A DNA stretch of 64,000 bases, taken from contig NC_071331.1 of NCBI RefSeq assembly GCF_010183535.1, positions 11,346,001 to 11,410,000 of the forward strand, given 5' to 3'. The stretch is from Caenorhabditis remanei. Taxonomy: Eukaryota; Nematoda; Chromadorea; Rhabditida; Rhabditidae. The translations under genes were made by a program, and so were the position numbers. The notes under the pieces are model-generated. The model did not search any database, was not told the DNA's origin, and saw nothing but the letters and a program-made list of their open reading frames with translations. This document shows, in pieces, positions 1 to 64,000 of this stretch (position 1 is the first letter of the stretch; every line of letters starts with the position of its first letter).

Positions 1-387
1 TTTGAAACAGAGAAAAAACAGCTAAATGGCATTGCAAAAGAGTGAATGAGTACTCTAGGAAGAAGTTTGAAGTTGAATTCCGAGGAAACAAGAAGAATAT
101 TGTATAGGATGGAGCTGATCAAAATATTTCTTATTTGGAAATCATGAGCAGCAGATTGTGTGTTCAACAAAATTACTGTTATCTGGATCAAATAAAGTAA
201 CATATTTGATTGTGTAACTGTTAATTTATCTCTTTGTGACAAGACAGTATTTTCTGAAATTTTGAACCCGGACAGTTCACAATCGGACCAGAATCATCAC
301 CATACGGTGATAGCTGCTTTCAGGTGTTCGAGCATAGAAATCTGTTTCAAGTACTTTATGTCTACTGAATGCTTGTTGCGATCATAA

Positions 388-408
388 TGTTTGCCTTGGA
401 GTTGTACT
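388..408 (+). ncRNA. Candidate 21U-RNA (type I piRNA)
   Basis: CTGTTTCA at 342-349 is the core upstream motif of C. elegans type I 21U-RNAs; transcription there starts two bases before the 5' U within YRNT, about 42-46 bases downstream. Here TAAT places the U 46 bases from the motif start. Expression is not visible from sequence. Confidence 0.4.
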
Positions 409-681
409 TAGATGTTCCAGGACAATCACTACAGTGACCTTACTGCTTCATATGCACGTATGTTCATAACTCAAAGCTGAACTGTGAAGCAGACTTATCG
501 AAGCATACTAGACGGGGGTGACGTCAGTGCACCCCTCTCACACCAATTGTTCTCTCCGTCATCTTCTCTTCTTAAACATCCACCGCACTTTTTGTTTATG
601 AATCCACGTCTCCAAGGTCCGTGTACTATTTCACTGGCGTTCCTTGGCAGAGTACATATAAATCTGGAAAGCAGTTAAGTA

Positions 682-702
682 CTGATATTTAAAGTTGGGA
701 AA
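682..702 (-). ncRNA. Candidate 21U-RNA
   Basis: Motif at 740-747 (-); start signal CAAT, offset 45. Confidence 0.4.
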
Positions 703-1117
703 TTGGGGGATGAAGAAAAATGATAACAAATTGAGCCGGTGAAACAGGAGAATATGTCTCTCTCGACATGCTATTTGAATGGGTATCGTAAACAAATTTC
801 AATACCAATGTGATTTGTACATTCAGAAAAACTCAGTCTGGTGAAACTGAAAAATAAGGAAACTAGATGGTAAAAACAGTTGGTTCCGCTTTTGGGAACG
901 AAGTGATACTACAAAAATTACTGTATCAAGATAGACATGAAGGGAGTTTAAGGAACAGGAAATATTGATCTCATCATAGTTCTTCCTGAAATACGAATTC
1001 GATTGCTTTTTAGGAGTTTGGATCAGTGCTTCGTGTTCTAGTTTCACGGTAAGAGCATGATTCCGTAGAATATTATTGGAAAGGTTATAACTAGTAGGCC
1101 AACTATTCTGTAGTGAA

Positions 1118-1138
1118 AAACAATCAGCCGAAGAAGAA
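1118..1138 (-). ncRNA. Candidate 21U-RNA
   Basis: Motif at 1176-1183 (-); start signal CAAT, offset 45. Confidence 0.4.
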
Positions 1139-1732
1139 TTGAAATTGAAAAGTGGAATCACGGTTAACCAAAACATGAAACAGAAGGAGCATATGTGTAT
1201 TCGAATGCTGATTAAAAAATGCTGAAAATATTTCAATAATTTATGTCAGAAGATTCATCTCAATACGATGAAAGAAGGACTCTCGTGGATTCTCGCATTC
1301 CCGAAGTCGGAAGGTTTTGAGTTTCAGAATTCATATACTACAGTACCCCAATAGCTTCCGTTTCTCAAATCTCTCAAAAAATTTCCCCCATGTGCTCAAT
1401 GTTTCTTATCTTCAAATATTCTAAATTGACTTCCAAGAAGAAAATAGAATGTACAATCGAGATGGCACAGACACTCCAGAAGATGTTGTGTACAGCACCC
1501 ACGGACCAACGGACTGGCAGCACCGTTCCCCTATCGATTTTTTCGTTTGCCGGTTATATTGGTGTTTTGGGCACTTTTATCGGTTTCAACTTGGTTTATG
1601 AGAGGTTTTCATATTCTGTATACGTCGGATTGACATTCAATTATTTCTGTTTGAACATCCTATCAAATTGTTTCTTTAAACTCTCATTAATTTGTTTTTA
1701 GCCCACTCAAAAACTTAAATTTCCAGCCAAAA

Positions 1733-2896
1733 ATGTCTCGACGTAGTGCTCGACTACACGAACAGGATGCATTCGCAAGAGAGACTGAAAGACAAAGAGA
1801 ACTGGATCAAGATGTTGCAAGACTCAGTCCATTCTTTCAGAGAATGCTTCCAGGTCCTGAAACAAGTACTCCGAGATCTCAAAGGAATCGAGATAGATTG
1901 ATGAGGGCTCCAAGATCTGAGCCATCACCGATAGAGAGGGAGAGAAATCAGTATATTCGTCATGTATTCAGAACTGAAACTCTGAGAAGATCACCGAGGA
2001 GACTGATGGTTCCGCCGGTGACTCCGGTTAGGAGGAGAGTGAGTTTTATTGTTTTTTCAAACAAAAATTTGCAGTTTCAAAAACTTAACTTATGTAGTGA
2101 CATATTAAATGTCATCGTTACTAGAGCTGAATCGCAAGTCTGAATCTACCGTAGAATAAATCCGAATTTCCAGAACTCAATGATCCAAACTCTCTACCCG
2201 ATGGACCCTCCATCTCCAACAGAATCTGAAGAGAACACTCCAACTCAATCCCGGCAAAACAGCCCGTCCCCTCCAAGATCCCCTGTCCCAGAACCCAGAG
2301 AAACCAATCTAATTCCTCCCCCTAATAGTCCAGAATCAGGAATTCCGAAGCGTTGGGAAAGACTTGCTGAGGATAACATAAATATGGGATTCGGATTTGC
2401 TCTTTCTTGGATTAACACTATCAAATTTTCAAGGCTTGAAGCGGAGGAAAGAATCATTCTGCCTAGAATTTATCGTCATGTTCCAAGGAAATCTCTCATG
2501 TGTCTTCTGGCGCACATGAATGTAGATGAGACTGTTTTTCATCATGTCGAAGTGAAAATGAAGTCAGAGGTAAGTGAAACAAAATCCTTGAAGTGGAACA
2601 AAATCCAAAGAAAAGTTTTTTTTCAGATGAATATGAGGAAAACCTTCGCAGAATTCGTCAAACTCCCAATCCCATTTCATCGACTCCGTCTCAAAGTTGA
2701 CAAATATGCAGAAGTTCCGATAAACCAAGGAATTGTCGATAAGTTCGAGCCTGTTGAGTATTTTCGATTGGATACAAAACTTCCGAATCTTTGGATTCTT
2801 CATCAAATCGTGAATCATGGCCCAAAAGTTGACGAATACAAAAAGCCGCGTCCACCAAACTTCGAGAAGGCCAAGAAGGGTCGGGAAGACTTTTAA
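1733..2896 (+). CDS. Unknown nematode protein related to the C-terminal part of FLYWCH factors
   Basis: Exons 1733-2038, 2174-2569 and 2627-2896, all phase 0, give 323 residues. The 57-bp last intron has GTAAGT and TTTTTTCAG ends but is open in frame, so retention would add 19 residues. The start was chosen because ATG follows a TTCCAG acceptor closely, which fits trans-splicing. An alternative first exon 1462-1604 joined to 1702-2038 keeps the frame and would add a hydrophobic N-terminus. The N-terminal half is rich in Arg, Ser and Pro and probably disordered. The last ~110 residues resemble the C-terminus of the FLYWCH gene just downstream: a basic helix, a KV segment, then FRLDTKLPNLW against FLVDTRIPSCW. 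No FLYWCH finger is visible. From memory, C. elegans flh-3 neighbours flh-1, so this may be a divergent relative. A polyadenylation signal AATAAA lies at 2933-2938. Confidence 0.75.
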
Positions 2897-2938
2897 TGGC
2901 AGTAGTTTTTTGTATATTTCTATTTTTACTCCAATAAA

Positions 2939-4426
2939 GTTTGTTTTCAAATTGTATCTGTCAGTATTAAAAAGCTAGTTTACAGATCTCTCATCCAAAA
3001 TTGTTATTATTTATAGTGAATACCTATTATTTTTGATAAATTCCCGTTCATTTCTAAAGAGAACAACAACAACAAGCGTTTTCTTCAATTCCAGGTAGAA
3101 TTCGATTAAAATTTTAGACATCTTAGGAATTTCAGTTTTCAAGTGCTCATTTTAAAGAAAAAACCAGATGTGGTACAAGATTTTCCGATTGAATGCGAAC
3201 GAAAAGTTTGAAGAATCCAATGATTTCAAATTAAAAAAATCCTGAAATATGTGCATTCTTACGTGACGGTGTTTGCACAGAAAGAGAACTACCGTAGCGC
3301 ATGAAAAACGATGTGAATTATTTTGTTTCGCTTCCGCTCATTTTGCTCTGTTCTGCTAATTTTTCAGTATTTTACCGAATTTATCCAGCTGAAAGTGAAT
3401 TTTAAACGTTTAATGTCAAGTTTACAACAAAAACCACCTGTCTCTAACATGATTCAGCTTTAAAATAAACAAAACAACAATGTACTCAATAAGTCGCAGT
3501 CGTTTCGTGAAAAAAAACTTGATTTCTGTCTCAAAAAGTCTAAAAACTCTAAAGAAAATTTATATTTTGACCGCTCTCTGCATTTTACTTTTACTCAAAA
3601 CAACAACAAGCGTTCTCTTTTTCGGGTTTTCCTATATTCATTATTTTTCTTTCTCACACATACAAAAACTGTTATTTTAACTAGATCGTTCAATATTGTG
3701 GTTGAAAATACAGCTTGCCATAATTTTAAACAAATTTAATTTCAGCTCGATTCCCCTGAATAAGCACTAACCATGACAACGGAAATGGAACAATCACTGG
3801 AATTCTGGAAAACTGTTTTCAGGTTCGGCAGTGATCGATCGATTAACAAAAAGAAAATGATAGAATCCCCCAGTGTTACTCCAAAGAGTGACCTCGCCGC
3901 GCTTGAAATAAGAGCTCTTTTGTTTTTTTATAAGCCACGCCCCGTGCCCGTCGGCTCTCATTACCCCTCCCATAGAGAGTCAAACCAATTGTTCGGCTCC
4001 CCCCGTTCAACCATAAAATTGATCTCTGCCCTAATATGCTGGCCCTCAACGAGTACAGTAATCCTCACCATCTGCCCTTTATTCCTCGCATCGCTCACGT
4101 TGCTCCCACTCACAAACGCTCACAAAACACACAGGGGTCCCCTCCCGGGAAGGGACCACCCGAACAGTGTAAATAAACGAACGGCCCCAAGACGTTGGTC
4201 CCGTCGCGATGCGGCCTGCGAGCGGATTGGCAACGTCACTCGGGCAGAGATAGTGTGGGAGACATAGAGACGCAGTGAAACGGACCCTGTCCGCGTTCCC
4301 GCCCACCCCCCGCGCACTCCTTCGATGGTCCGCCACCCCTCTCCGACTCGTCAGTCGACCTTTGCATTCCCCTCCCTATCTATACCTCTCATATTGATTC
4401 TTTCCCTCAATATTTCCCTTTTCAGA
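2939..4426. promoter_or_regulatory. Intergenic region and presumptive promoter of the FLYWCH gene
   Basis: About 1.5 kb without a convincing gene. 3880-4330 is clearly GC-richer than its surroundings, and a 164-codon frame there (3773-4267) lacks domain similarity. It ends at the TTTTCAG acceptor just before the FLYWCH start codon, so 5' untranslated exons may lie within it. Confidence 0.4.
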
Positions 4427-6678
4427 ATGAGTACCGATTGCTCATCTCCATCACCACCAGCAACATCAGGACTCCAAGCACCAACTCTTCCAGAAGCCCC
4501 TGAAATCCAAATGGAAGTTGAGGAGACGTCACCGGGAGCGTCGGAAGCGTCGCCAGAGGCACCAACGGCTCCCGCCACTCCAGAATCTCCGGATTCTTCA
4601 CCAGGATCTCCCGACGAGGGAATGGATGTTACAGAAGGGGAACCATCGACTTCTGATGCCACAGCAGTCGTCCCTCACCCAGGAAATATCGATATGGCTG
4701 AGGTTTTCAGAGTACGTTTTTTAGAGCCAATTTAAACTATACTTGCAAACCGGACCGGCGCATAACTCACTTCAAACTGAGTTTTGTGAGCTGAAAAATA
4801 TACCAAAATGTAGATCTCGGCGAGTTATGTGTCCTTGACTTACGACGGACCGGGAAAAAGTGCCAAAAAAACGCGAAAATGGCCAAAAAATCCATTCTAG
4901 CCATCCGGCCCGTAGTATGTCAAGGACATTGAACTTGTCGAGATCTACATTTTGGTATATTTTTCAGCTCATAATATTGAGTTTGACGCGAGTTACGAGC
5001 CCGCAAACAGAAACTAATTTCAATATTTCAGAACAATCAACTAGCCCTCCAAGCGCTTATCGCCGGCGGAACTCTCAGCGATAATCCAACTCTTGCCATA
5101 TCCAAACTCTTCAGCGCTGTCGGTCTCCTTCCACAAGTGAAAACAGAACCAGGAGCACCGGAGCCAAAGAAAGCGAGACTGAAGGTCTTTTCCAACGGGT
5201 TCTTCATGACATTCGACAAAATTTCTTCGTGTAAAATGAAGCATTTCTGGAGATGCGAGTACAAGAACACTTGCAAAGCTCGTATGCATACAGATATTGA
5301 GAGCGAGAAGATTGTGACCTATATCCACGATCACAATCATACTCCACCAACTCCCGAAGAAGTGAGACTCTATGGAATTGATCCGACGTCAGTCGAGAGA
5401 AATCGTGTCTATATCGTTGGCAATGTAGCTGATACAAACGCCCGTAGAAAGATTCGCAAGCAAGTGGCAGACAGAGAAGCGGCAGCGAAACGTCTTGAAG
5501 AGCAAAAGAAGGCGGAACTGCAAAAGCAACAAAACGAGGCGACGATTAAGGCGGCTCAAGAGGCGTACGCACGGGCCATCTCCAGTGGAGCCATCTCTGG
5601 CGGAGCCATTTCTCAGCGCTCGCCAATGGCCGCGGCCGCTTCACTTCTTCAGTCGGCCTCGACGGCCACTGCTCCAATTAACCCTCATGCATTGCTCTTG
5701 GCGCAGCTGCCCTATTTGAATCAAGGAATGGCGAGAAATGAGATACCCGGAATGCCCAATCCAGCGTTTATGGCATCGAATATGGTAGGTTTTGTTTGAT
5801 TTTTTAATCGTGTTTTGTGAATTTTCCAACTAATAAGTGTAATTTCGAAAAGATTTTCGAGTTCCTAGACTCAAATTTTTAACAGAATCAGCAAAATTAA
5901 TTTCTGCCAGAAATAGCTGTGGTAGATCAAAATGTGAGTTACCGCTGGCGGTAAAATGTTTGTTTTGCAAAATTTGTCTGCAAAAATTTCAAAAAATTGC
6001 GTTTCTTTTTTTCTAGAGGGAAGTGGAAATTTTGTAATGTTTCGACATTTTCCTGGAAAAAATCACTTTTTTTTCATTTTTTCACCTGCAAACCCCAATG
6101 TACACATAACAATTCCAAAACAGTTTCAGTCAATGCCATCCAGTTCTCCTCCAGTCCCACCGCCAAATGTCTACTCCTCTCCACTCGTCATCCAATCGGA
6201 GGTTGCCGACGCTCCGGCCGCTGCGCCAGTCCCTAATCAACCATCCACCAGCAACAGACCACTGGATCCGATGATGCCAGATCCAGATATGTTGGCTCAT
6301 CCACTATTCGAACCAACATTCCAAATCGCTCGTCAACTTCGAAAAATGTGGAGTGGAGTTCCAAAAAGGTATCCGAGACCAGCGGATACACCAACTGATC
6401 ACTTTGATTTCTACGTTGCCAAATACGATGGAGGATTGGAGCATTTGTACAATTTGATTCGTCTCGAAAGACGCGACGAGGCACATATGAAGAATGCTCT
6501 CGAACGGTTCTTCAATGAAGAATTCATCGGACCGCTCCTTTTCAAAGTGTCGCCAAAGATCTGTATTGCGTTCAACAAGCCAATGTTGGACACCTGGGAA
6601 AACAATCAATTCTTCCTCGTCGACACCAGAATTCCAAGCTGCTGGAAGATGATGTACGTCGATGATCAGTGCGACTAA
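4427..6678 (+). CDS. flh-1: FLYWCH zinc-finger transcription factor
   Basis: Exons 4427-4711, 5032-5784 and 6130-6678, all phase 0, give 528 residues. The N-terminus (about 1-95) is acidic and rich in Pro, Ser and Glu. Around residues 140-200 is one FLYWCH finger: a hydrophobic strand, FWRCEY, a second Cys in NTCKAR, and the closing HDHNH zinc ligands. A Lys/Glu/Ala-rich helix follows (about 225-270), then an Ala/Ser-rich linker and a conserved C-terminal domain ending WKMMYVDDQCD. The family binds DNA; C. elegans FLH-1 and FLH-2 repress microRNA genes in embryos and PEB-1 acts in the pharynx. The symbol rests on my recollection that flh-1, rab-28 and a cuticle collagen are near neighbours in C. 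elegans; flh-2 is the alternative. Intron 1 contains a palindromic element. The start ATG is one base after a TTTTCAG acceptor. Confidence 0.85.
4743..5009. mobile_element. Palindromic MITE in intron 1 of the FLYWCH gene
   Basis: Two imperfect inverted arms of about 100 bp face each other. Left-arm landmarks are GTAGATCTCG and GTCCTTGAC; the right arm carries their complements GTCAAGGAC and CGAGATCTAC. The arm ends near 4743 and 5009 also match. There is no coding capacity. The right arm contains a TTTTTCAG that could act as a cryptic acceptor. Confidence 0.65.
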
Positions 6679-7046
6679 TATGAAAACTGGATAATAATTG
6701 TATTTACTTTTTTACAAACTGTCTATGTTATCATTTGTATCATGTTTTATCTCTATCTCTATCCCTCTCTACTCCCCCGCCTCTTCCGTGATATCTCACT
6801 GAAACGGGTTCCACTCAACCGCCATTGTAAACCTTAAGCCTTCCCCAATGTTTTTCCAGACATTTTTTATGCAAAATCACTCGTTTACCCCCTTCATTGT
6901 AATATCGCTTCACACTGTCCATACTTTTTCCAAAGTTTTTTGTGTTCACCTCTAAATTATCCGTATCGGATCGTAATAAAGCAGTAAAGTGATAAGAGGA
7001 AATGACATAAAAGGGCTTTATTGGGTGATGAGGTGATTAGAAGGAG
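6679..7046. promoter_or_regulatory. Intergenic region upstream of the collagen gene
   Basis: A 368-bp spacer holding the 3' flank of the FLYWCH gene and the presumptive collagen promoter. The 6740-6800 part is rich in CTCT. I see no gene or clear repeat. Confidence 0.4.
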
Positions 7047-8108
7047 ATGGATATCAAGAAGAAATTGGTGGATTCTGAAGAAGATGAGCTCCGGAAAGTG
7101 GCGTTCGTCGCCATTGTTGTCAGGTAAAATTCTTTTAAAAAAATAGTTTTTTTTGTAATTTTTTTTCTCGAATTTTCGAATTTCAGCGCTGCCGCTGGAA
7201 TAATGTGCATCATTTTGATTCCCGGACTCTACACATATCTTCAATATATTCAGAGTTCCGTTCAGAGTGATGTAAGTTTTCTTTTTGAAAATTTTGAAAA
7301 TTTCGAAAAATTAAAAAAAAATCGAATTGTTCAGGTCGGATTCTGTGTTGATGGCGCAAAAAATCTCGAAAATATGTATCAATCGACGAAAGATTCCGAC
7401 TCAAAACTTGTAAAAAGACAGTCCGGATATGGCTCCGCCCCTAATCGGTCTTCTGGAAGCCGTCCGGCTCCATCTCCTTACGACGCCGCTGCCACGTCAT
7501 CTTCCTCGTCTTCTGATTCTTGTTGCAGCTGTGGAATCGGGTTGGCTGGACCACAAGGATTCCCGGGAAGTCCTGGAAGAGACGGACAAGATGGACCAGC
7601 CGGAAGACCTGGACAAGACGGAAGAGATTTGGATGGAGGCGCTTCGGATGGCTCTGAATTCGAGATTGATTGCCCTGCTGGACCACCGGGAGCTCCTGGA
7701 AACCAGGGACCACCAGGAAGTGCGGGAAGACCTGGAATGGATGGAGTTCCAGGAAGAAATGGAAGATGTGGACGGCCAGGAGAGCAAGGAGAACGTGGAC
7801 CGAACGGAGAAGATGGGCGGCCTGGAAGACGTGGAGACGATGGACAACCTGGAGAAGTCAGAGACGTTCCGGCTCCTGCTGGACCACCGGGACTTCGTGG
7901 AGCACCGGGAGGACCGGGACCAATGGGACCACGTGGAAATGATGGAAGACCTGGAAATAAGGGACCAGCAGGACCTCCAGGAGATCAAGGATTCGATGGA
8001 GCACCAGGAGGACCTGGAGCCGATGGAGAGCCTGGAGCACAAGGACCACTCGGTGCTGCTGGTGGATGCTCGCACTGTCCACCACCCAGAACTGCTCCAG
8101 GATATTAA
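7047..8108 (+). CDS. Cuticle collagen
   Basis: Exons 7047-7123, 7187-7271 and 7335-8108 encode 311 residues, a typical size for nematode cuticle collagens. Order: a short cytoplasmic N-terminus, a signal-anchor helix (about residues 20-40), the Col_cuticle_N region, and a basic LVKR at the start of exon 3's second part that fits cleavage by a BLI-4-type subtilisin protease. Then comes a CCSC cysteine cluster and interrupted Gly-X-Y blocks starting at [10 protein letters not shown]. Interruptions with Cys (EIDCP, NGRCG) and a C-terminal GGCSHC fit disulphide or tyrosine cross-linking between trimers. Secreted by hypodermis into the cuticle. Position beside the FLYWCH gene suggests the col-120 equivalent, from memory only. 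A polyadenylation signal AATAAA lies at 8159-8164. Long antisense frames over the Gly-X-Y region are shadows of the repeat. Confidence 0.93.
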
Positions 8109-9044
8109 TAGAATCTCTATTTTACTTTTTCTTAGTTTTAAAATCTAAATTTCTGTACAATAAAATCTCAGAAAACTCGGTTTGTAATTCAGACGGAACA
8201 AAGTTTGGGGACCGAGAGAGTGTGCAGAAAAGGGAGACGCAGAGAAAATAAGCAACGACACTCCGCTGTTTCGCTTGAAAAAATGATTTATTTTCAAGAT
8301 TTTTCAGCCATTTTTCCGTTTTTTCTCCCGTTTTTGAGAAGTTTTCGGCAATTATTTCGATTTCTAATAACTTACAACTGTTCTCAATTTATTCGAGCAC
8401 CCTTACAGCTCGAATAAGACATGTTTTCATAACGAAAACCTTCTTCAAAGCTTAATTATTGCATCACTGCCCATAAAAGCTTGTCAACCTCAGAAAATCG
8501 TCTAATTAGCAGATTATCTCGTAGAAACAAGATATAATTTTCGATAACAACTATGTTTAGATCCCAAATAGCAAGAAGTCTCTCGAATTCTGTATTTTTT
8601 GTTGTTTTTCGATCCTTAGCAGTTCACATAACCTTTTCAGGCTTATGTTCAGTGCATTCACATCTTTATTCATTGAATTTGATACCTCTACTGTTGAAAT
8701 CCGCTAAAAATCTGTTTTCTAATAAGATTGTTTCAAGAAGCCATGCGATTCAATTAAAAAATTTTTTTAAAACTGCGATTATCTCTCAATCTTTCCAAAA
8801 ACTACATGTTCTTTTGATGCCTGAAACTCGAAAGAACAAGAAACAAGTACCCGACAATAGTCACGTAGCAGACAGCGAGATAAAGTGTAAACATCACTGA
8901 ATTGTCATCATTTTTCTGATCGCCTCGGGTCCTTTTTCTTCTCCTTCAAAGTATCCTTCACTCATTTACTAAAGTCCGTTTCGTTCGAAAATTTTCGATT
9001 TATACTTTATTTGCATTCAACTATTTTCCAATTTCAGCTCAAAA
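8109..9044. other. Intergenic, no gene seen
   Basis: AT-rich spacer between the collagen and a small gene. A 115-codon frame at 8553-8900 has neither splice structure nor recognisable features. One near-match to the 21U motif (CTGTTTCG, 8266-8273) is present. Confidence 0.4.
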
Positions 9045-9656
9045 ATGGTCACCAAGAAGACAGTCACCGAACTCAGCCTGTTCGCCGGTCTCATCGTGTG
9101 TAAGCGATGGTTGTTTTCCGACCGTTCTCAAGTTTAAATTGTCAATTTTCTTTCAGCGATGCACGTCGCCTACTACACCATCCAGAATAACCCGTCGCTC
9201 GTGGCACCGCATCAGGTAAGATTTTTTTGAGCGGAAAAACGAAGGAAAGTTAACTTTTCACGAAAAGGTTATGCGGAGTTCAAAAAATTGCATCGGACTG
9301 CAAAAAAAAACCTATCCAGTTGCCATCATAAATCCAGTTGCCAATTTTTGCGATCGTTTAATTTGGTTTCCAGTTACAGAAGGGCTAGAAATTTGAGTCC
9401 GAGGCTAATAGATTCACTGACTCAGCCATTTTCGATAAATATCGTACAAAGAAGCACTATTCTGATGAAATAGCCTCCCCAACACTGATTTTTAGTTAAT
9501 TTTTCTAAATTTCACACTGAAAATATCGAAATTCTCTCTCTAAATTATCTTTTATTCCAGAGACAAGAGCTCTTCTACGTGAGATGGCTGAAAGAGAAGA
9601 TTCCAGCATTGCGACCATACGGAGTGACCGATGAGCCACCGAAAGCTGACCACTGA
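9045..9656 (+). CDS. Small single-pass membrane protein, unknown function
   Basis: Exons 9045-9099, 9157-9215 and 9561-9656, split in phases 1 and 0, give 69 residues. The ATG follows an ATTTCAG acceptor by seven bases, as in trans-spliced worm genes. The order is a short Lys/Thr start, a hydrophobic helix (about residues 9-26), then a charged, aromatic segment with RQELFYVRWLKEKIP and an acidic/His tail. Size and layout resemble small accessory subunits of mitochondrial membrane complexes, but I do not recognise the family and assign no function. Good splice sites, consistent phase and worm-like codons argue it is real. Confidence 0.7.
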
Positions 9657-10334
9657 TTGATCGATTGATAATTTTCTCCCCTTCCATTTCTTGTAATTAT
9701 CATTTCCAATCCCCATTTTCATCTTCTGTTTTCCCCATAACTAATTAGTCGTTTAGCAGTTTCTCTTCTGTCTCAAAATGTAGTAGATAAACCTGACCTC
9801 AACCCCCACTTCACCGGATACATCTTTTGTCCGAAAGTTTGCGTGTAAAACCGGTTTCTAGCTCCTCTCCACCCACCCGCGCGTAAGGATTTCAATAACA
9901 GTTTGGCGGCTAATCGGCCACAGAAAGGGCATCTCCTCCCGAAAACGATTTTCGCTTTTAGAGGGGAGGGCTTCACGATGCGAAAGGGAAGCAAGTTGAA
10001 GACAAGAGACGAGAAGAAGAAGCGAATGCCAATCGGAGGATGATTCGGAAGACAGAAGACGAGTTTTGAAGGAGGGGAGGGATAAGATGAGAAAAGAAGA
10101 AGAAGCTGGGATCGCGGAAGATTCTTCTCTTCGATATATCCACACAAGTCGTTTTACTTTCAAGGATTTGAAACACCATCATTTCGGTTTTTTTCGAAAA
10201 AGAAGAAAGCATCACTGTAATCGAAAATCTGTTCGATTTCGTGTTTTGGTGTACGCAATTCTTTCGTTGAGGGGGAATAGGAAACTACTGTTTCAAATCA
10301 TTCTTGAATTTTAGTGAGGTTATTCAACGAGTAA

Positions 10335-10355: not shown

Positions 10356-10951
10356 TCTTGAAGCTTTCTTCGTATTATAATTAATTATATTATCTCTCTG
10401 ATTTTCTTAATATTCCAGTCACTTTTTGTGTTCTTCAGTAGAGCAAACTTGCCAGAAGCTTGTCATCGTGAAATAGAAAAACCTGCAGCAAACTGACTCT
10501 GAATCCTTTATATTTTGATAACCGGTTACCCAGAAATCACCGGTTTCAGAACATTGTGATGAGAAAATAGCACTTTTCTGTATCAATATTGTTAAGCCAT
10601 AAGTTTTCACATTTTAATATTTCTAATCTAAAGAAAATGTATCGGGTTATCAGTTGCATTTTTATGACCTATATGAAACTGTATCATTCAATTATTTGAA
10701 ATTTTAATTCAAGATTTCTGATTCATAGAACTCATAAGAAATACTATAAATATGTAGCTGGAATAGTCAGATGCTATATGTAATCTATCAATTGCACAAC
10801 ATCAATACTTTGGAGCTTTCGATGTATTCATCATTCACTTTCTCAAAAGGGATTCCATCAAATTTATTTCGTTTCTCTGAAAGAATGAACCGTTCAACTG
10901 ATCGTTACTGTTTCAGAGTATCCTCAATTACTAAGCCACCTTTATGAATGG

Positions 10952-12568: not shown

Positions 12569-12720
12569 ATTTCGATAATAATTGTTTTCAATTTCGTAAA
12601 CTAGCTTCTTGGATTTCAGGAATCTTATTGATCTGAACATCTGTTTCTCACGTCCAAATATTTTCTGAAACATTACTGTTTCAAATACTCATTTTGATAG
12701 GCTACAAATTTCTTTTTTAA

Positions 12721-16890: not shown

Positions 16891-16901
16891 CTGGTTTACT
16901 G

Positions 16902-17345: not shown

Positions 17346-17353
17346 CTGTTTCA
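17346..17353 (+). promoter_or_regulatory. 21U-type motif
   Basis: Exact CTGTTTCA; TGAT puts a possible 5' U at 17395, offset 49, slightly beyond the usual spacing. Confidence 0.3.
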
Positions 17354-18231: not shown

Positions 18232-19092
18232 ACAGTTTAAATCCAAAAGATTAAACAAAAGAAAACAAGTTGAAACAGAAAAAGAGATCAGATGCTACAA
18301 GGTCTTCTCATATTCTTCTATTAGTCATCTCAAAAACTTTTTAATGTTGAAATCTAATAAAGTTCCATTGAGAAGACCAAAAGTTCACAGCTAATGAACT
18401 GTTTGCGAAACTGTGATTAGATTTTGGGTTGTAATAGAATTACAGTTTCATAATGTTTTCAAGGTTATCGTTTTCCTACTTCATTTAATTCTTGTCTTTA
18501 AGGAGTTAAAACCATTTATAATATTGCTTTTGAGTTTCGAGAAAACATGGATGCTTCTAATCGGCCCCTCTTCTTATCTGTGAATAATGAAATGCTATTT
18601 TTAAACTGGAAACTGAAACTGCAAATTTTATAAACACAGTATCACACCCACATATCACACCCAGTTATAAGAGAACATAAGGATTTATGAAACGTTATTC
18701 AATGTGTATTTTTCATTTCAAAAACAAAATCAGAAACCATGTTTCACACAATAAATAATATATCAATACTAGAAGCCACATTACTCTATTATTGTCAATA
18801 GAAGTTTAATGAAATTTTACTAATATTTTCCCTCATTTCTTTTCGTTTCCACCTCCTGAAAAAACTTTTTTGAATAGCCCAATAAAACACTATCCTTGTT
18901 CTTCTTTTACGTTTTTAATTCAAAAAATATGTTTCAAGTATATCATTTTTGCCAGAACCTATAAAACCATCACTTCATTTTCCTTAGTTAGTCAATTCCT
19001 TATCAAGCTCCTATATGTATCTTTTGTCGATTCCTTCACTATCGCTCATCTCTGTAAATACTCAATACTTCAGCCTTCTTCTACAAATTAGG

Positions 19093-39681: not shown

Positions 39682-40135
39682 GTGCACTGACTAGCATACA
39701 GTTCACTTCAAATTAGGTTTGAAACAGGAAAAAATACGAAATTGGTGGGACTGATTCCAGATATCGATTTGGGTTTTCATAGAAAATTTACGGCCAGGTG
39801 CTTTACAATAGTATAGTGACACAATATGAATAGTTTTAAGTTTTACAGATTCATACTTACAGATACTTCAACAAAATGAAAATAGAAGTATTACTAATAG
39901 TAAGAAAGTTTGTTCCTATGAATCACATCTATGAAACATTACTTTTTTGCGATGTTCATCCAAAACTTTTAAACGAATTTTTTGTTTGATTTTTACATCT
40001 AACAGGATTTTCTTACAGGACAGTTCATTTTCCTTCTGTAGTAAAGATATAGTTTACAAGAATGGATAAATAAGATTAGATAATGTTTCGTGATTGCTTT
40101 ACGCTTATACTTATTACCACTCATAGTAATGCTGA

Positions 40136-43055: not shown

Positions 43056-43067
43056 AAACTAGCTCTT

Positions 43068-44205: not shown

Positions 44206-44226
44206 TTTATTGTGAATGTTAATTGA
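44206..44226 (-). ncRNA. Candidate 21U-RNA
   Basis: Motif at 44265-44272 (-); start signal CAGT, offset 46. Confidence 0.42.
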
Positions 44227-48687: not shown

Positions 48688-51600
48688 TCAGATCTTGTCA
48701 GCAAGTTGGGCTTGAGATGGATGGGCGACTGAATGTTTCTGACGGTCAGCCGTGGTTCGACGGGCGACAATCACGAATCCAGTGGTACCAATGAAGAGGA
48801 ATACGGTGAGGACGCACAGCCAGATGTAGATTGTCATGTATGGAGTGAGGAGAAGGACGATCACAGATGAACCACTCTGAAAATAAATTATTAAGGATGG
48901 ATGGGAGGGAATTTTACTTTTTGAGTAGATAAAGTTGTTTGAACAGGAATATGTTACAATTCTCTCTGCTAATATTCTGCTAATACTATCTCTGCTAATA
49001 TTTTTTAGCAACGTCTGCTTGTTGAAACGGTAAATTTTCAAACTGTACTCATTATAGTTTCCCATGAACTTCACGGTTAACTAGCTTTGATGATTCTGAA
49101 CTTTTATTCAGTATCAATTTCTTTCAATGACAGATTATTCCTGTTTCAAACAAAACTTAAAAATTTAACGATCTTCATGATATTGTTTTAATTTTGCCTC
49201 TATTCATTAAAATTGTACGGTTGGCACCGTGTGCTCTTCTAAAACATTTCTTTAAAGTCACTTGAGTTTCTAGACTCACTCCGTATGTCACTGTGTGCCG
49301 CGTTTGACCTCCGGGCGCGCGCGCATTTCTCGCAGCTATATTGTCAATTTCGCTTTCAAAATGGAGAATTTCGGCACTCTTGGGCGCTGGCGGAGGCACG
49401 TTAGGTGCTCCGTTATTCTCGTTAGTGATTTTACCTTATTTCTTGGGTTTTTAGACCATTTTTATAGTTTTCTTGTGATTTTAGTGCATTTTAGCCAGTT
49501 GGGCTCAAAAAGTTGCGTTTTGGGTGTTTCTTGCGCGTTTCAGATTGAATTTATATCAAAACTTGGTTTTGATATAAATTGTATTGAGTTCTCGCGTGAA
49601 TCCGTCGTTTTCTCTTGCTTGTGTGTGTTTTCTCATAGTTTTAGCTAATAAGTTTTGCAAGTTCGCTCGTGAATTTGTATTTCTTATTTACTAAATCACC
49701 AACCTGATACAACTTTGACAATGAGAAGACCTGCATGCGACAGTCTGGAACAGCAACTTGACAAATGACGGCACGCGCCATTGTGACACAGAAATCAGAG
49801 AATCCGATGAGAAAACCGATGATGAATACGAGAAGGCGACTGAAAAACGTGAGAGGATTGGAGAGTTGTGGGGAGTTTGGTAAGAGAAAAAGAAGATTTC
49901 TGTTTCTGGATCTTGTTTTCTTGCTTTGAAATGTTTATGCCAATGCTAAGATAGTAAATGAGACATTCCAGAGCCAATTTAAGCTATTTTATGTAGATAA
50001 GTTCCAGAACTAACCACGCTCATATTGATCATCGCAAATATTTTTTTGACGAACTTTTCAAACTTATTTGAAAAAAGCATCATCATAACCAGAACTGAAA
50101 AGACAAATACCACCGTACTAAAAAACCCTGATGAAACCGAAAAAGGTTTCAATAAGTTACAGTTTCAAAAAGTTGAGAAAACAATAATTGATTTTTCGAC
50201 TAGATGCTTTGGTCCATTATTTTTTGTGGTAACTTTCTTTTAAAATACAATGTTTCCTATTCAATATTTCTTAAAATTTTTCTTTGTTAAATACTAATGA
50301 CAGAAAATCTTCTAACAACTACTCTGTTATCATATTAACCCAAAATCATCCCAAATTTTTCATCACCCCTTCATAGTACTACAGACTCCACCACAATTCC
50401 ATAGTACAAGCATGTGATCTACACGATATCTTTGTCTTTTTTCCATCCTTTTTTCTTATCAAAACGACGCCAGAATACTGATAAAATATCGCCGTGAAAT
50501 CACAATTCACGTCAGTTCAAATTACGATTATCCATGGTCATCAATCGAATTAGAACACGAAGAAACATACCTTGGAGTCAAAAAAAGTGGTGCAGAATTG
50601 GTTGGACCAAAGGTTGCAAGATTTGGAATTGAGAGAACAGCCAAGATGATAATGATGGAGTAGGAGAGGAAGTTGGTAGCAGCAATCACATAGAGACCAT
50701 AGTCACCGGCACGTTTCAGAAGGGGGCGGAGGAATATTCCACCTGGAAAATTAGTAAATATATAATTGAACACTTAAATGAAAACTATCAATATCATCCA
50801 TTTCTCTGGATTTTTTCATGAATTATTTGAAACTGAAATTTTTTTCGTGCTCCAACAGCTTTGACAAGGGTAAGCCTCTGTTTTGAATCAATTCAAACTA
50901 TTTTTTATCATATCAAAACAAAAACTCACCTTAAATGTTTTGTTTGAAACTGTTCCAAACCATGATTAATGTGATAAGTCGACTAATCGAGATTGATAAG
51001 AGAAACATTCAATTTCAATTTCAAGAGTACCCGATGTCTTTCATCTTTTTTTCTTGCCGCACAGAACAAAAAACGAATTGAAAACATGTGGAATTCATGT
51101 GTATTCGGTTAAGAGTTCAAGGAAACACAAATAGGGGGTACGGTTTCAAATTTCAGTTCTGGAGATTTTTTTTTCTAAATCTGCGTAGTCCGCGAAAACT
51201 AGGAAACTTGGAAATTTCCCTGTTTCCAAAACTTAATTTTTGAACAGAAATCTGTTTCTTTTTAATCTTTCCATATGTTACACTCACCAATAGCCTCGGC
51301 GATTCCCATAGAAACTGAATAGATTCCAATAATATAAATATCAGTTTTGAATGCATATGTGAAAGAGAGTGTTGTTGGGTAAACAGTCATCAGAAATGAT
51401 ACTGCGAATCCTTGGAAGAAGAAGAATGGCATCAGAATCAACAGATTCTTCGATTGGAATGCTTTGAGAAATTGTTCTGAAAAAGGGAAATGGCTTTCAA
51501 AATAAACATGTTTCAAAAACTATAAAATTTAAAAAGTTTTCAAATTTAAAAAATATCTGTTTCTCCCAGCTTTCAACTGTGTTGCAAAGTTAGTCAAATG

Positions 51601-53327
51601 ATAAAGGAGGCAGAATGTTTAGATTCCCGAAAACTTACTAATTTGATTGGCAAGTGATGGGACCACAGTTGAAGACTTCGAAGCGATTGAATCATACTGT
51701 TTTGTAGGGAGGAAAGCGAAGACTACGACAGAAAACACATTCAGAATGAACATTGTTCCGTAGATGAATCTGAAAATAGAGTATGTTTCAGACTCAACAT
51801 TTCTATAGATTTGAACGAATTCGGTGTTTCTTCTTACAAAAGATTACAATTATGCCTGAACCAACCTGATTTGCAAATCCGAGTACTCGATACCATTTCC
51901 ACCTTCAGTATGAAGAAGAAAACACAAAACGATGAGTGCAATTCCTCCGAAAAACATGCTCGCATGTCCGACAGCTGTCTCAATTCCAGTGTTCGATTCG
52001 ATTGTTCGACGAGAAGAGTGCTCTGATAGATACTGTCCTTCACCGTTGTTGTAGACTGAAATGAGGAATTGGAAGCACAGATTTTAGTTTTGTCGTTCAA
52101 TATGAACTGTTGAAACCGGAAAGTTTTTGACCTGGATACCCGACTCACAAACCTTAAAATCGAAAAACTAAAATCTTAAAAAACATGCTTCGTGTTTTTA
52201 GCGTATAGTTTAATCGCCATGCTCCTTATTATAGATGTTTCATATTTTAAAAAAAATTTCCCAGACTCACATGAATATCCGATACCCATGAGGGCTTGTG
52301 TCAGGTAGAAATAGTACTTGTTCAAATGGAAAAATCCAAGATAATAGACTGCAAAAAGTGCAGAAGCCAGTGTCAGGAACCATTTACTCGGAACGAAATG
52401 TTGAAGGGATGGGGTGACAAGGGTACAGAGGGCGAAGGCCGACAGGTGGAATGCCGCTCTGAAAATTAGAGAAATTGTATTGATCAACGGTCTCAAACAA
52501 AACATTAGTTCTTATACAAACCGATAGAAGCAGTTAATCAGTAATAGTATGTATTACCCGAATTTTAAATCCACTTACCCATAATAACCGGCGTACGCTG
52601 AGATAGTGTCTGGTGATTTCTCATGGATCGAGTGGATGACTGACTCTCCAATGAATTGTTGAAGGGAGTATCCAGTGTAGAGAAAGAGTGTTCCGATTCC
52701 GAGAAGGTATGTACAAAGTAGTTCATGACGTCTGGGGGTTAGTTCCATCCAAAACCTGTAAATATTGAATAATTCGAAGTGCGATAGTATACCTAACGAT
52801 GAAAGCGATAGAGCTATATTTGAAATGTGGATACTGAAACAGAAAACTGATTTTTGAAAAAATCATGTAGGCTATATACGGTAAAAACAGCAACAAAGTT
52901 CTACCAAAGTTCCCGTTTCTCAAAAGTTACAGATATAACAGTGAGCTATTTTAAATGGTTCCTTTCGTAGAGTTTGTGGCCTACTTTTCTTGAGAATTCG
53001 CTTTTGGAATATGATTTTTAGACGTCTTTCTCGAAGATTGTAAGATTTTGAAAATATATGAAAATCACCGGAATTTGATCTAGTAATTTGATAGATTCTG
53101 ACCAAAATCTCGTAGTATGGAAAGTTGTGTTCATCTACATACTGTAGTACTTAACAAAACAATCAGATACTTCACATCAACCTTTTGAAACTGTAAAATA
53201 TACCCTACCAATCGAACTCAAGGAACAAACTGAAATCAGTAATCACTCCAATCGAAAACAGTAAAAAATACCTTTTCGGTTTGGCGGAATTCTCCTCAAG
53301 TACATAGGGAATATTCGATGATTCCAT
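48688..53327 (-). CDS. UNC-93-like major facilitator protein
   Basis: Nine exons in gene order: 53272-53327, 52579-52755, 52271-52458, 51866-52055, 51639-51769, 51288-51476, 50571-50742, 49704-49839 and 48688-48876. Phases are consistent and the product is 475 residues. After a short N-terminus, the region LLGIGTLFLYTGYSLQQFIGESVIHSIHE, then AYAGYYG, is typical of the UNC-93 family. About eleven to twelve hydrophobic helices follow, including FFFFQGFAVSFLMTVYPTTL and IYIWLCVLTVFLFIGTTGFV. A soluble loop with Asn-Asn-Gly and NRT-like sites lies between helices. Worm UNC-93 modulates the SUP-9 potassium channel; the role of this paralogue is not known. The tail is charged and ends QLADKI. Introns hold several exact or near 21U motifs. 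Confidence 0.9.
49187..49207 (+). ncRNA. Candidate 21U-RNA in UNC-93-like intron 8
   Basis: Motif at 49141-49148; start signal TGTT, offset 46. Confidence 0.42.
52775..52795 (-). ncRNA. Candidate 21U-RNA in UNC-93-like intron 1
   Basis: Motif at 52835-52842 (-); start signal CGTT, offset 47. Confidence 0.38.
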
Positions 53328-55547: not shown

Positions 55548-55865
55548 TCAAATATATTTTCTCCTATTTGCAGGTTCAAAGTTAATTGAAACAGGAATCC
55601 AAAGAAATGTTCTAGAAGTTTCATTGAATTCAGAATAGGTAAAGCTTTTTGTTCGGACTCAGTTTCAGATATTCCATGACTCCATAATCTTGGCCTAACA
55701 AAATAACTAGAATAGTGATGTTGCTAGCTACAAACATGGCTGAATGTTTTCTCAAAACACGATCTTCTTCGAAAGACTGAGAAATAGCTACACAACAATG
55801 GAGGTTTATAAGTATGTACATCCGATTCAAATCCTTCCATTTATGGAATAGTCGAAACAGTTGTA

Positions 55866-55886: not shown

Positions 55887-56724
55887 ATGTTTAGAACATC
55901 TGCAACTGGAGAAATGGAACTTCTGAAACAGTTATCAACAAAACTTTAATGATTCTTGAATTCTGATATTAATTAGTTATGAATACGGTTTTAATAGTTT
56001 TGTAAAGTACTACATTTTTTGATGACGGATTCAACGATGACCGGATGATTATCAGATAACACAGCAAACAATAAAGAATAATTGCAAAAATACAAAATGT
56101 CTGAAACTGAAAATTTTTTCATCATAGTCCCGACAAAGTTCATAGAAATTAGTACGCAAGCAACAGTGAAAAATGAAGGAGGTCCGTAACTGGAAGCTTT
56201 GTCACGCTTCTATATAATAGGTGCCTTGAAACTGTTGATTTCCCTCTGAGCTCGTTATGATCAAAAACTAGAAAATTACAGTTTCAACTCATATTCAAAA
56301 CTACAGTTCCAGATGTTGATGCTACTACTCCTCTACTAGATTCATTTCACACATCATTAATAATCGGTTCTCAATTTTAGACATACCTGTTAAAACTTGC
56401 CACCGTCATCTCGTCCTTCTAATGTCTTCCTTTACAAAAAAAAACGTCTGTATCCAACTGGGCAGGTCATTTTCCACTCTCTCCTCCCCTTTACTTTTCT
56501 TAATTTGACACCGTAATCCTAAACCATCCAATCAAGACACAAAAAGGAATCGGAACTTCATCAAAGAACAAGAAACAAAAAAACGTTCGTTGAGCCTTTA
56601 GAATTAGGTGTGGAAATAGGAACAAGTGATAATTAGTGTACTGTAATTATACACTTTTGCTTGGGTCACTCTATTGTTTTATTGTGTTTACAATGGGCAG
56701 ACACTTTGCTGCTAGACACTTGTC

Positions 56725-57054: not shown

Positions 57055-57108
57055 TTTGTAGATTACTTGGGGAAATTGATTGGGAGGGGAACGTTTTGAA
57101 GTTAGCAA

Positions 57109-61059: not shown

Positions 61060-61426
61060 CCAAAAAAGTAAATTATGTATAAAACATACAGAAAAAAGGT
61101 AGAGCTTCATTTTTGTAGTTCACAACTTTTTTTGTACGGGCACTCCCTAGCAAGTTACATCTCGACAAAGTAATTTCTTCCTCAAATTGACTCATTTCTG
61201 TATAAAATAAAGTGATTTTTGAGCTGTCCTCTTAAAATGACCATAACTCTCTAAGGAGTGTCTGTACAAAAAAGTTGTCAACTGCAAAAATGCAGCTCTA
61301 CCTTTGTTCTGTATGGTTTATACATAATTTACTTTGTGGAACAATCAGTGATACCGTAACACCCTCTCAAAGTTGACCATTTTTAACTGAAAAAGGCCAA
61401 ATTGTATATCTTACTGCACGGTACTG
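61060..61426. mobile_element. Truncated mariner/Tc-like MITE
   Basis: It shares long stretches with 59446-59913, including GACTCATTTCTGTATAAAAT and the right terminus ACTGCACGGTACTG, but the left terminus is missing. Its right end abuts the TA at 61427-61428 that is also the target of the next element. Confidence 0.65.
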
Positions 61427-61428
61427 TA

Positions 61429-63014
61429 CAGTACCGGACAAAAAGATATCAAGTTTTGGTTTTTCGACCATAACTTGTTTCAAATTGGTCGGATTGACTT
61501 GAAACTTTGGGAAAACATTTATTGTAGAGTTATTGTTATATTTAGTTAACATTCTCGGTGAAAAATCATTTTTTACAAGTTTTTTGTAAAATTTTCGAAA
61601 ATCGTGAAAAATCAAAAATTGGATATTTTTATTTCCATGACCGGTGTATCAAAAATAGAGCGTATATTTAGTGTTTATAATTGTTTTCTAATACAAACAG
61701 TCCTGATGTTTATTTTTTGATCACTGGACCCCTACTTTTGACTTGTTACCCATATCTCCCGGGCTGTCAAAGATTGGTAGTACTAATATATGGAGTTGTA
61801 CACTTCAAACATCTGTAAAACTTGTATTTTTGCAGGAAACAATGTAAAAGTGTACCAAACTATTAAGAAGAATGTGGAAAATCTGAGTGTGACATTTTTA
61901 TCTTGATAGAACCCCTCAGCCAATTTTTAGAGACCTTCGATTATCAAATACTGCATATCTGATATCGATGTATGACCAGTTCCGGAGCGAAATTATACAT
62001 TTATTCGGTATCTTTGGTTATTTGAACGTATGAAACCTGTTATTTGAACAATTTTGGATATTCTGAACCAAAATTTGATGAATGATTAGTTGTTGAGGTA
62101 TTGTTACATTGAAAAGAAACTTCGTCGGGATCATATTTTGACAGCATCTTTTGGCTCTCTCATGAAAAGTTGAGAAAATGTGCGAGAGGACACTTCTAGC
62201 ATTTTAAAACTCATCTAGGTTCTTTTCTGACGTGAATGATCAAATATGCCATCAATACACTATGAATTTTCAGTAAAAACAAAAACACATAGTTTTGATA
62301 CTTTCAACCCAGTGAGAGTAACATTCCAGCGAGTGATTCAACATTATTAATACAAAATTGTGTACCGAAACTAGGCTCAGAATATTCACAATTGTTCAAA
62401 TAACAGGTTTCATACGTTCAAATAACCAAAGATACCGAATAAATGTATAATTTCGCTCCGGAACTGGTCATACATCGATATCAGATATGCAGTATTTGAT
62501 AATCGGAGGTCTCTAAAAATTGGTTGAGGGGTTCTATCAAGATAAAAATGTCACACTCAGGTTTTCCACATTCTTCTTAATAGTTTGGTACACTTTTACA
62601 TTGTTTCCTGCAAAAATACAAGTTTTACAGATGTTTGAAGTGTACAACTCCATATATTAGTACTACCAATCTTTGACAGCCCGGGAGATATGGGTAACAA
62701 GTCAAAAGTAGGGGTCCAGTGATCAAAAAATAAACATCAGGACTGTTTGTATTAGAAAACAATTATAAACACTAAATATACGCTCTATTTTTGATACACC
62801 GGTCATGGAAATAAAAATATCCAATTTTTGATTTTTCACGATTTTCGAAAATTTTACAAAAAACTTGTAAAAAATGATTTTTCACCCAGAATGTTAACTA
62901 AAATTAACAATAACTCTACAATAAATGTTTTCCCAAAGTTTCAAGTCAATCCGACCAATTTGAAACAAGTTATGGTCGAAAAACCAAAACTTGATATCTT
63001 TTTGTCCGGTACTG
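61429..63014. mobile_element. 1.59-kb foldback transposon with Tc1-like ends
   Basis: The termini CAGTACCGGACAAAAAGATA and its complement are flanked by TA (61427-61428 and 63015-63016). The end closely resembles Tc1 (CAGTGCTGGCCAAAAAGATA, from memory). Arms of about 640 bp (61429-62068, 62372-63014) are nearly exact complements around a loop of about 303 bp. No transposase is encoded. Confidence 0.88.
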
Positions 63015-63213
63015 TATGTATGTGAAACCGTAGGCGGTTCTAATTCATTCTGTATTGTATTCTGTATTGCGAAATTTCGATACTGCGAAATCGTTAGGTT
63101 GCATAGCTATGTGTGCTTGTTGCGATACCATCTATTCACTTGTAACTGCTCTCCAATTATAATAGTGGCAGATGCCAGCCATCCTATTGAGGGGTTTTGT
63201 ATATGATGAGATT

Positions 63214-63234
63214 AGAGATATAACCGACCTGTCA
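63214..63234 (-). ncRNA. Candidate 21U-RNA
   Basis: Motif at 63275-63282 (-); start signal TGAT, offset 48. Confidence 0.35.
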
Positions 63235-63471
63235 TCAGCTTTTGGTTTTTTCTGAATCGTTTAAAACAATTCATTGAAACAGTAGCAGTAGAAATGAATT
63301 TTTCATGGGTTTTTTTTAGTTCTTATTCAACTGATTGTGAACATTGAAGCTGAAACTATACGGTATTCATCTTCATTATTAGGACAAATCAATTATAAAA
63401 GAGCTTTATAAAACAGAAAAAGAAGTTGTAAACAAAGAGAGATACAAAGAGAGCATAGTTCTGAACAATTT

Positions 63472-64000
63472 TTAATCCCAGACCACAAAAGCAATTTGAT
63501 TCTTAGCTGCTATGATAGATCCCCACGTCCCTCCATCTTCCTGCTGGATGTCGTACGCATCGGAGAAGTCAATCATACTCTTTGAGTTGTTGATTATTCT
63601 GAAAGAAGTACACTCTCTTCACCTTTAGGCTAATATCAATTAAGAAAAAAACTTACCTTGGGTCATAGTTAAACATCTTTGGACGTCTGATTCCATCCCA
63701 ATCCAATACATTCAATTCATCTAACAACTCATCGATAAAATCATCGCTAGCAAATGTATGTATAACCACTGCATGCAAGTTGTGGAGTCCCTCTTTCTTC
63801 TGCCATTTTCGAATCATTTTAATCAGAGGTGAGTACATTATTTCCGCATTGTGAAGAATCAAACAACGACCAGAGAAATATTTCATAGCTCTAGAAGAGA
63901 TCAAACGGGAACCTCGCAATGCTAATCCCTCGATCTCCCAAATCTTTGAGTATTGCTTCAAATCTCGTTTAGTAAGATCCGAGAAAAATTCAAGACTGTG
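63472..64000 (-). CDS. F-box/FBA-type protein, 3' part only
   Basis: Two exons are visible: 63658-64000 (running off the window) is the penultimate exon, more precisely ending at its donor after 63657, and 63472-63598 is the last. The sequence includes YFSGRCLILHNAE, DWDGIRRPKMFNYDPR and the end FVVWD, each alignable with the first F-box gene (NFSGRCLLLFNAN, PWDGLRRPRNFMFDPR, FFVWD). This is the FBA region; the F-box itself lies outside. The intron between the two exons is 58 bp. A tandem duplicate of the gene 3 kb away, in the same orientation. Confidence 0.85.

Follow-up and report, generated by a model that had tools for sequence, protein, structure and literature searches.

Piwi-interacting RNAs (piRNAs) are small RNAs that guard germ cells. 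Among the closest described systems are the type I 21U-RNA clusters of Caenorhabditis elegans, whose units combine a CTGTTTCA core, AT-rich boxes, a YRNT signal, and a spacer within 35 to 42 nucleotides (nt) (PMC3597512, PMC11822377, PMC4015492, and PMC4050365). These clusters occupy both strands, lie among genes, and are found on chromosome IV. The window analyzed here, a stretch of 64,000 nt of Caenorhabditis remanei PX506 chromosome IV (11.346 to 11.410 Mb, at 44% of the chromosome length), resembles them in all of these points, and we put at roughly 94% the probability that it belongs to a type I 21U-RNA super-cluster on this chromosome. The original prediction for this stretch had proposed a piRNA cluster and guessed at chromosome IV; the window does belong to that chromosome, and the cluster reading is supported by enrichment of the Ruby core, the distance to YRNT, AT-rich boxes on both sides of the core, occurrence on both strands, avoidance of predicted coding sequence, and concentration in a megabase-sized domain (24 samples from chromosome IV and 11 from five other chromosomes).

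Differences from the described systems concern extent and detail. The C. elegans clusters lie at 4.75 to 7.5 and 13.5 to 17.5 Mb (PMC9683057), whereas our samples outline one domain of about 10 Mb in C. remanei. The C. briggsae clusters lie at 0.02 to 7.1 and 13.0 to 15.0 Mb on chromosome IV and at 9.8 to 12.0 Mb on chromosome I (PMC9683057); C. remanei is similar in its long chromosome IV cluster, which in C. briggsae includes about 1 Mb outside the C. elegans clusters, and in its AT-rich boxes, but a chromosome I cluster was not seen, with no exact core in 15 kb sampled at 7.0, 10.7, and 12.0 Mb. In C. elegans, piRNA-rich stretches of H3K27me3 chromatin are broken by active blocks (Beltran et al. 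2019, PMC6436959), and the window, like these C-type clusters of clusters, is dense and broken by a gene-dense block devoid of sites. Some window sites, beside an exon of rab-28, recall the dispersed intronic piRNAs of the Pristionchus type described in the same paper; unlike these, the C. remanei sites do not look spread over the autosomes, the small samples taken on other chromosomes having few of them.

Clusters of this kind are already known in C. elegans and C. briggsae, and what appears to be new is the predicted place and extent in C. remanei. 21U-RNAs of this species have been sequenced and number 2 to 3 times those of C. elegans (review, PMC6468775). Our literature search found no chromosome-scale C. 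remanei piRNA map, although subscription papers and supplements were mostly beyond reach and one may exist; neither PMC6436959 nor PMC9683057 mentions "remanei" in its main text, and the word "piRNA" is likewise absent from that of PMC10461856. The data presented here give a first, purely sequence-based outline of the predicted locations of type I piRNA genes in C. remanei, and the list of predicted 21U starts in the window can be checked directly against small-RNA data.

The window contains 34 exact CTGTTTCA/TGAAACAG sites on both strands (5.31 per 10 kb). The original prediction had given the same count with a chance expectation of 2 to 3; 100 dinucleotide shuffles of the window had a mean of 3.99 sites (standard deviation, 2.07; maximum, 9), and none reached 34. 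No exact site lies between 1183 and 10288, consistent with the claim that the gene-dense 1.2 to 10.2 kb holds none. Nine 10-kb samples from chromosome IV, 3.0 to 13.0 Mb, had 55 exact sites (6.11 per 10 kb), compared to 12 in the nondomain control (0.80 per 10 kb), which comprised 20 samples totaling 150 kb, taken elsewhere on chromosome IV and on the five other chromosomes. Counted apart from this control were a 10-kb sample at 20.5 Mb (7 exact sites) and later 5-kb samples at 2.3 Mb (2 sites), 13.6 Mb (0), 20.1 Mb (7), and 20.3 Mb (0), as well as at 10.7 Mb of chromosome I (0). Across the whole assembly (130,466,896 bases in 186 contigs), CTGTTTCA occurred 9,483 + 9,517 times (1.46 per 10 kb of 130.47 Mb) and the same pattern read backwards 3,454 + 3,327 times. 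A search without prior assumptions, comparing the domain (window plus nine samples, 154 kb) with 160 kb of nondomain sequence, returned CTGTTTCA as the most domain-enriched of 28,058 8-mers (89 versus 12; P = 1.2e-16), followed by words overlapping it and by CAGTTTCA.

The YRNT signal stands at a preferred distance from these cores. We scored it as in place if its T lay 43 to 48 bases after the first core base (spacer of 35 to 40 nt), for which the window baseline of a 6-wide stretch is 0.379. This was the case at 27 of the 33 testable window sites (binomial P = 3e-7; the 34th, at 3 to 10 on the minus strand, runs off the window), close to the 26 of 32 counted in the original prediction, and equally wide stretches placed at three control distances gave 14, 12, and 16 of 33. 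In the nine other domain samples, YRNT was in place at 49 of 55 sites (P = 5e-15; 21, 23, and 24 at control distances), and outside the domain at 8 of 15 (5 of 9 in the chromosome IV deserts, 3 of 6 on other chromosomes). With nine core forms and 400 sites from the main domain and the 20.1- and 20.5-Mb samples, YRNT counts were 82, 89, 60, and 53 at distances of 45 to 48 against about 30 elsewhere, with smaller peaks of about 50 at 14, 17, and 18, the position of the downstream box described below. Another small peak without explanation (52 versus about 30) lies 39 bases after the first core base, 6 to 7 before the main one. The most frequent C. remanei spacer is 37 to 38 nt (distance of 45 to 46), whereas the C. 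elegans range of 35 to 42 nt has its abundance peak at 39 (PMC3597512).

This spacing bears on two other explanations. Nematode 3' splice acceptors read TTTCAG, and CTGTTTCAG resembles an acceptor, so that the sites might be acceptors enriched in an intron-rich stretch; a G does follow 19 of the 87 exact domain sites with full context. The 68 sites without this G have the better YRNT spacing (61 of 68 versus 14 of 19), acceptors should be equally frequent elsewhere, yet the density there is 0.8 per 10 kb, and phased YRNT signals and AT boxes would be left without reason. We consider the splice-acceptor explanation highly improbable and, because most sites lack the following G, rule it out as the main one. 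It is barely conceivable that the sites are bound by a transcription factor, forkhead or other, that controls nearby genes: forkhead proteins do bind a CTGTTTCA probe in vitro (PMC3597512), but from a plain binding site one would expect neither a fixed spacing to an initiator nor a domain of megabases on a single chromosome, and the flank coupling described below also speaks against it.

Promoters of type I 21U-RNAs, the reading we prefer, also agree with the bases around the core. In 280 sites with YRNT, T was overrepresented at positions -3 and -2 (z = 8.6 and 9.6), A at -9 to -6 (z = 3.6 to 5.7), and T/A/T at +17 to +19 (z = 8.3, 7.0, and 7.3), the last forming part of a TYATAT-like box at +14 to +19, at a fixed distance from the core. 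These boxes played no part in site selection. None of them reached z = 3.3 among 95 domain sites lacking YRNT or among 70 sites from elsewhere, sets that are smaller and have less power (the outside set was built with five core forms, the domain set with nine). They correspond to the AT-rich boxes of C. elegans, in which changing the downstream box reduced 21ur-4606 more than 21-fold (PMC11822377). Coupling of flanks and YRNT was seen even with the short word GTTTC, which occurs 374 times in the window (58.4 per 10 kb; YRNT in 56%) and at 31.2 per 10 kb outside (YRNT in 35%): window sites with YRNT had the better flanks (P = 3e-11), and outside there was no coupling (P = 0.40).

Core, flanks, and YRNT were then combined in a model consisting of a 34-nt weight matrix, trained on the nine domain samples with the window excluded, and a YRNT term. 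The window holds 174 sites scoring at least 10 and 126 scoring at least 12. The density at the higher threshold, 19.7 per 10 kb, compares with 0.95 on the rest of chromosome IV, 1.82 on the other chromosomes, and 1.25 in the shuffled window; the control rates imply that some 6 to 12 of the 126 sites are due to chance. Chance is rejected as the main source of the sites by the exact counts in shuffled sequence, and base composition alone by these counts and by the matrix scan of the shuffled window. The 126 sites are divided between the plus strand (72) and the minus strand (54), and 115 have YRNT, giving 115 distinct predicted 21-mers. None lies in a predicted coding segment, where 11.5 would be expected; the coding prediction is a crude, conservative codon-usage segmentation that covers 9.1% of the window and missed at least the exon at 22573 to 22689.

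Two further explanations can be weighed against these sites. The cluster might be decaying and no longer expressed, its motifs being leftovers; piRNA clusters do differ between species (PMC9683057), and the presumed place of rab-28 and flh-1 between the two large C. elegans clusters (see below) would fit. The strong spacing and flank signals, and a window density within the range of the other domain samples (10 to 38 per 10 kb), make this very unlikely. Alternatively, the sites might be members of a repeat family, dispersed or tandem, that has spread through this region. Local duplicates at 43.2 to 46.8, 28.5 to 30.4, and 33.4 to 33.9 kb, with five CTGTTACA sites within them, and the similar look of the sites at 20.5 Mb would fit. 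A second copy of at least 60 nt in the sequence analyzed here (places within 250 nt not counted) exists for only 13 of the 126 sites, compared to 158 of 630 random noncoding window positions, and we therefore reject duplication as the main source of units in the window; since the 115 predicted 21-mers are also all distinct, a repeat family is an extremely improbable explanation.

The type I promoters predicted here vary in their core. The one-base variants CTGTTTCT and CTGTTTCC, which the original prediction had described as adding to the density, are indeed enriched 4.0- and 5.4-fold over nondomain samples. Absent from its list was CAGTTTCA, a second frequent and correctly spaced core, with YRNT at 44 to 48 in 56 of 79 domain contexts against a mean of 27.3 at seven other distances. 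Its density per 10 kb was 4.84 in the window and 5.33 across the nine domain samples, compared to 1.60 outside. Enrichment and spacing were also paired in CGGTTTCA, CCGTTTCA, ATGTTTCA, CTGTTTCG/C/T, and CTGTTACA, and mostly not in forms changed within GTTTC. Among the 126 sites scoring at least 12, core position 1 is C in 109 and A in 17, and at position 2, where 78 sites have T, the other 48 of the 126 have A (28), C (11), or G (9). Because the second base is weakly constrained in C. remanei, counts of the exact 8-mer miss many units, and the exact 8-mer is an undercount of the promoter units in the window. The forms are unevenly distributed. T prevails at position 2 at the left domain edge (2.3 Mb; 7 of 8 sites) and in the 20.1- to 20.5-Mb samples (20 kb), where the CTGTTTCA:CAGTTTCA ratio is 14:2, compared to 89:79 for the main domain (P = 0.008). 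In this male-female species, the different forms could correspond to piRNA classes that differ in expression. Cores of male 21U-RNAs in C. elegans have a 5' C much more often than those of female 21U-RNAs (PMC3597512).

The extent of the domain was outlined with spaced samples rather than a scan of the whole chromosome. Densities of sites scoring at least 12 (per 10 kb) were 0 at 0.5 and 1.75 Mb, 16 at 2.3 Mb, 38 at 3.0 Mb, 36 at 4.25 Mb, and 32 at 5.5 Mb; then 24 at 6.75 Mb, 21 at 8.0 Mb, 23 at 9.25 Mb, 14 at 10.5 Mb, 19.7 in the window, 28 at 11.75 Mb, and 10 at 13.0 Mb. They fell to 4 at 13.6 Mb, and promoter-like sites were nearly absent from five samples between 14.25 and 19.25 Mb (0 at 14.25, 1 at 15.5, 0 at 16.75, 1 at 18.0, and 2 at 19.25 Mb). 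Toward the right end, the values were 22 at 20.1 Mb, 0 at 20.3 Mb, 8 at 20.5 Mb, 1 at 21.75 Mb, 2 at 23.0 Mb, and 1 at 24.25 Mb. The figures at 2.3, 13.6, 20.1, and 20.3 Mb come from the 5-kb samples, with 8, 2, 11, and 0 sites. Chromosomes I, II, III, V, and X together had 10 such sites in 55 kb, a small sample (1.82 per 10 kb compared to 1.25 in the shuffled window). These densities place the domain between about 2.3 to 3.0 and 13.0 to 14 Mb, with a patchy second region near 20 Mb, whose status is uncertain (7 exact sites in 5 kb, none in 5 kb, and 7 in 10 kb between 20.1 and 20.5 Mb). The piRNA domain would span roughly 10 Mb, of which the window is a small part; that it is unbroken between samples, we infer.

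We take rab-28 and flh-1 to lie near 9.2 Mb of C. elegans chromosome IV, between its two large clusters, a presumed place that our literature search did not turn up. If the place of rab-28 is right, the C. remanei cluster fills sequence that has no large cluster in C. elegans and, together with C. briggsae, such a case opens the question of how piRNA clusters grow, merge, or split. A bolder version, in which one continuous type I domain takes up ~40% of chromosome IV, includes the C. elegans intercluster stretch (on the same proviso), and uses a promoter with a relaxed second core base (CAGTTTCA beside CTGTTTCA), is tentative, and we regard it as rather doubtful in its entirety. The domain (about 3 to 13 Mb) straddles the border between arm and center of chromosome IV at 8.64 Mb (Table 1 of PMC10461856). 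According to the same table, the left arm of this chromosome has 1.447 cM/Mb, less than half of the right arm (3.615) and the lowest value of any autosome arm listed, and PX506 chromosomes I, II, III, IV, V, and X measure 17,247,545, 19,935,723, 17,877,849, 25,790,997, 22,502,457, and 21,501,900 bases.

Several points weigh against reading the window as a piRNA cluster. The support consists of sequence features alone, and the RNAs, capped precursors, and promoter occupancy are all predicted. Only the matrix is independent of the window, as the YRNT weights and the core forms were chosen after results that included it. A background of 0.8 per 10 kb would account for about 5 of the 34 exact sites; 6 of the 33 testable ones lack YRNT in place, and 6 have a flank score of -4 or less (1176, 16902, 22633, 31789, 32056, and 40197). 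Coupling of flanks and YRNT within the exact sites alone is borderline (P = 0.049; 27 with and 6 without), and the avoidance of exons depends on the crude coding prediction. In the 20.5-Mb sample, a control distance (55 to 60) did as well as the true one (7 of 7 versus 6 of 7), and several CTGTTTCA sites there share, by eye, TTTCACTGTTTCATCGAAATTT-like flanks, as if piRNA-like units had been spread by a repeat.

Each unit would be a separate small transcription unit. It has an upstream box rich in AT, a Ruby core of the CTGTTTCA type, a TYATAT-like box 14 to 19 bases downstream of the first core base, and, beyond a spacer, the YRNT initiator; the T of this signal, mostly 45 to 48 bases after the first core base, would become the 5' U. 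By analogy with C. elegans, the germline complex USTC (SNPC-4, PRDE-1, TOFU-4, and TOFU-5), probably joined by ATTF-6 on the AT boxes, would recruit RNA polymerase II. Transcription would start at the R of YRNT and yield a capped precursor of about 28 nt, which would be trimmed to the 21-nt RNA and then loaded on PRG-1. The units would be located within germline-silent genes as well as in the spaces separating them.

Of the 34 exact sites, 24 reach a model score of 12 and 28 reach 10, the window-edge site being unscorable. Twenty-two of those 24 are given here with the predicted 21U start (the T of YRNT) and the score in parentheses. On the plus strand, CTGTTTCA cores are located at 342..349 (start 388; 16.3), 10288..10295 (10335; 18.0), 10908..10915 (10952; 17.5), 12676..12683 (12721; 20.8), 17346..17353 (17395; 17.0), 25193..25200 (25238; 19.6), 25497..25504 (25543; 20.0), 28435..28442 (28482; 13.8), 31715..31722 (31760; 15.9), 31817..31824 (31863; 13.3), 46095..46102 (46140; 16.1), and 49141..49148 (49187; 19.0). 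Those on the minus strand are at 740..747 (702; 16.7), 18271..18278 (18231; 20.5), 20765..20772 (20726; 17.4), 25114..25121 (25074; 18.2), 39720..39727 (39681; 17.2), 44265..44272 (44226; 18.5), 52835..52842 (52795; 17.6), 55587..55594 (55547; 14.5), 55924..55931 (55886; 17.4), and 63275..63282 (63234; 16.8). Four variant units with CAGTTTCA cores were added: 842..849 (minus; 804; 17.9), 2072..2079 (plus; 2119; 20.1), 19651..19658 (minus; 19611; 23.1), and 56102..56109 (minus; 56063; 23.6), the last with the top score of the window.

The exact 8-mer at 22633..22640 (plus strand) is a different case. By eye, it encodes Leu-Phe-Gln in a coherent frame bounded by an ATG at 22573 and, at 22690, a GTGAGT splice donor, and the label "exonic" given to it in the original prediction is therefore right; that the other exact sites lie in introns or spacers is backed by the crude segmentation only (0 of 34 in predicted coding sequence, 3.1 expected; P = 0.04). 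With a flank score of -13.7, the lowest together with that at 31789, and no YRNT, we judge it not to be a piRNA promoter, and the model tells this site apart.

The unit at 2072 is the last site scoring at least 12 before a gap at 2080..10287 (8,216 bases from site to site, with one site of 10.9 at 8768), which exceeds the largest gap in all 10,000 random placements (6,899). This block is gene dense and includes FLYWCH and collagen genes, with 46.7% GC at 4001 to 8000. We propose that it may be an active-chromatin interruption of the cluster, which would be consistent with the C. elegans picture of H3K27me3 stretches and active blocks, the C. remanei chromatin state being a prediction. Smaller site-poor gaps lie at 58.4 to 63.3 kb and 33.9 to 38.1 kb. 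Within the block, an open frame at 4987..5796 (plus strand) encodes a FLYWCH zinc finger of the flh family (PF04500; E = 6.5e-13), which agrees with the family of the flh-1 placement made earlier without establishing flh-1 itself, and 7128..8105 (plus strand) holds a collagen gene, probably for a cuticle collagen (PF01391; E = 6.2e-21; Col_cuticle_N just below the cutoff). The placement of rab-28 is supported by an open frame at 47160..47387 (plus strand) that holds an exon of a Rab-28 gene (best match, Rab-28 2hxs, E = 1.4e-17; next, 5.1e-9), with promoter-like sites on both sides. For 13 of 20 open frames chosen among those listed, Pfam returned nothing at E = 0.01. A tRNA-Leu gene (21734-21815, minus strand) was the sole Rfam match in the window at gathering scores.

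Locally duplicated units with CAGTTTCA, CTGTTACA, and CTGTTTCA cores occupy 43184..46814, upstream of the rab-28 exon at 47160, with copies about 0.2 to 0.7 kb apart. In nine hand-picked duplicate pairs, which are nonindependent and without a control, mean identity was 0.87 for the motif and 0.89 for the spacer, compared to 0.76 upstream, 0.74 for the predicted 21U body, and 0.61 downstream, a suggestive pattern. At 28546 to 30453, there are also three diverged copies, spaced by about 0.5 and 1 kb, some of them with promoter-like sites.

Other repeats include two fold-back elements at 26693 to 28296 and 61427 to 63016, which are probably DNA transposon-like and share the same layout, with arms of 650 and 643 nt that are 99% complementary and, in both elements, 304 nt apart. 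GC-rich (CGGGC)n/(CCGGG)n arrays stand in AT-rich sequence at 29817 to 30006, 31042 to 31144, and 13258 to 13328. The most common 8-mer of the window is CCGGCCCG (54 copies; 78 in the domain versus 27 in nondomain samples, mostly from the window), and a tandem array at 16155 to 16419, with units of 113 nt and less, is rich in GGCGGAAAGC.

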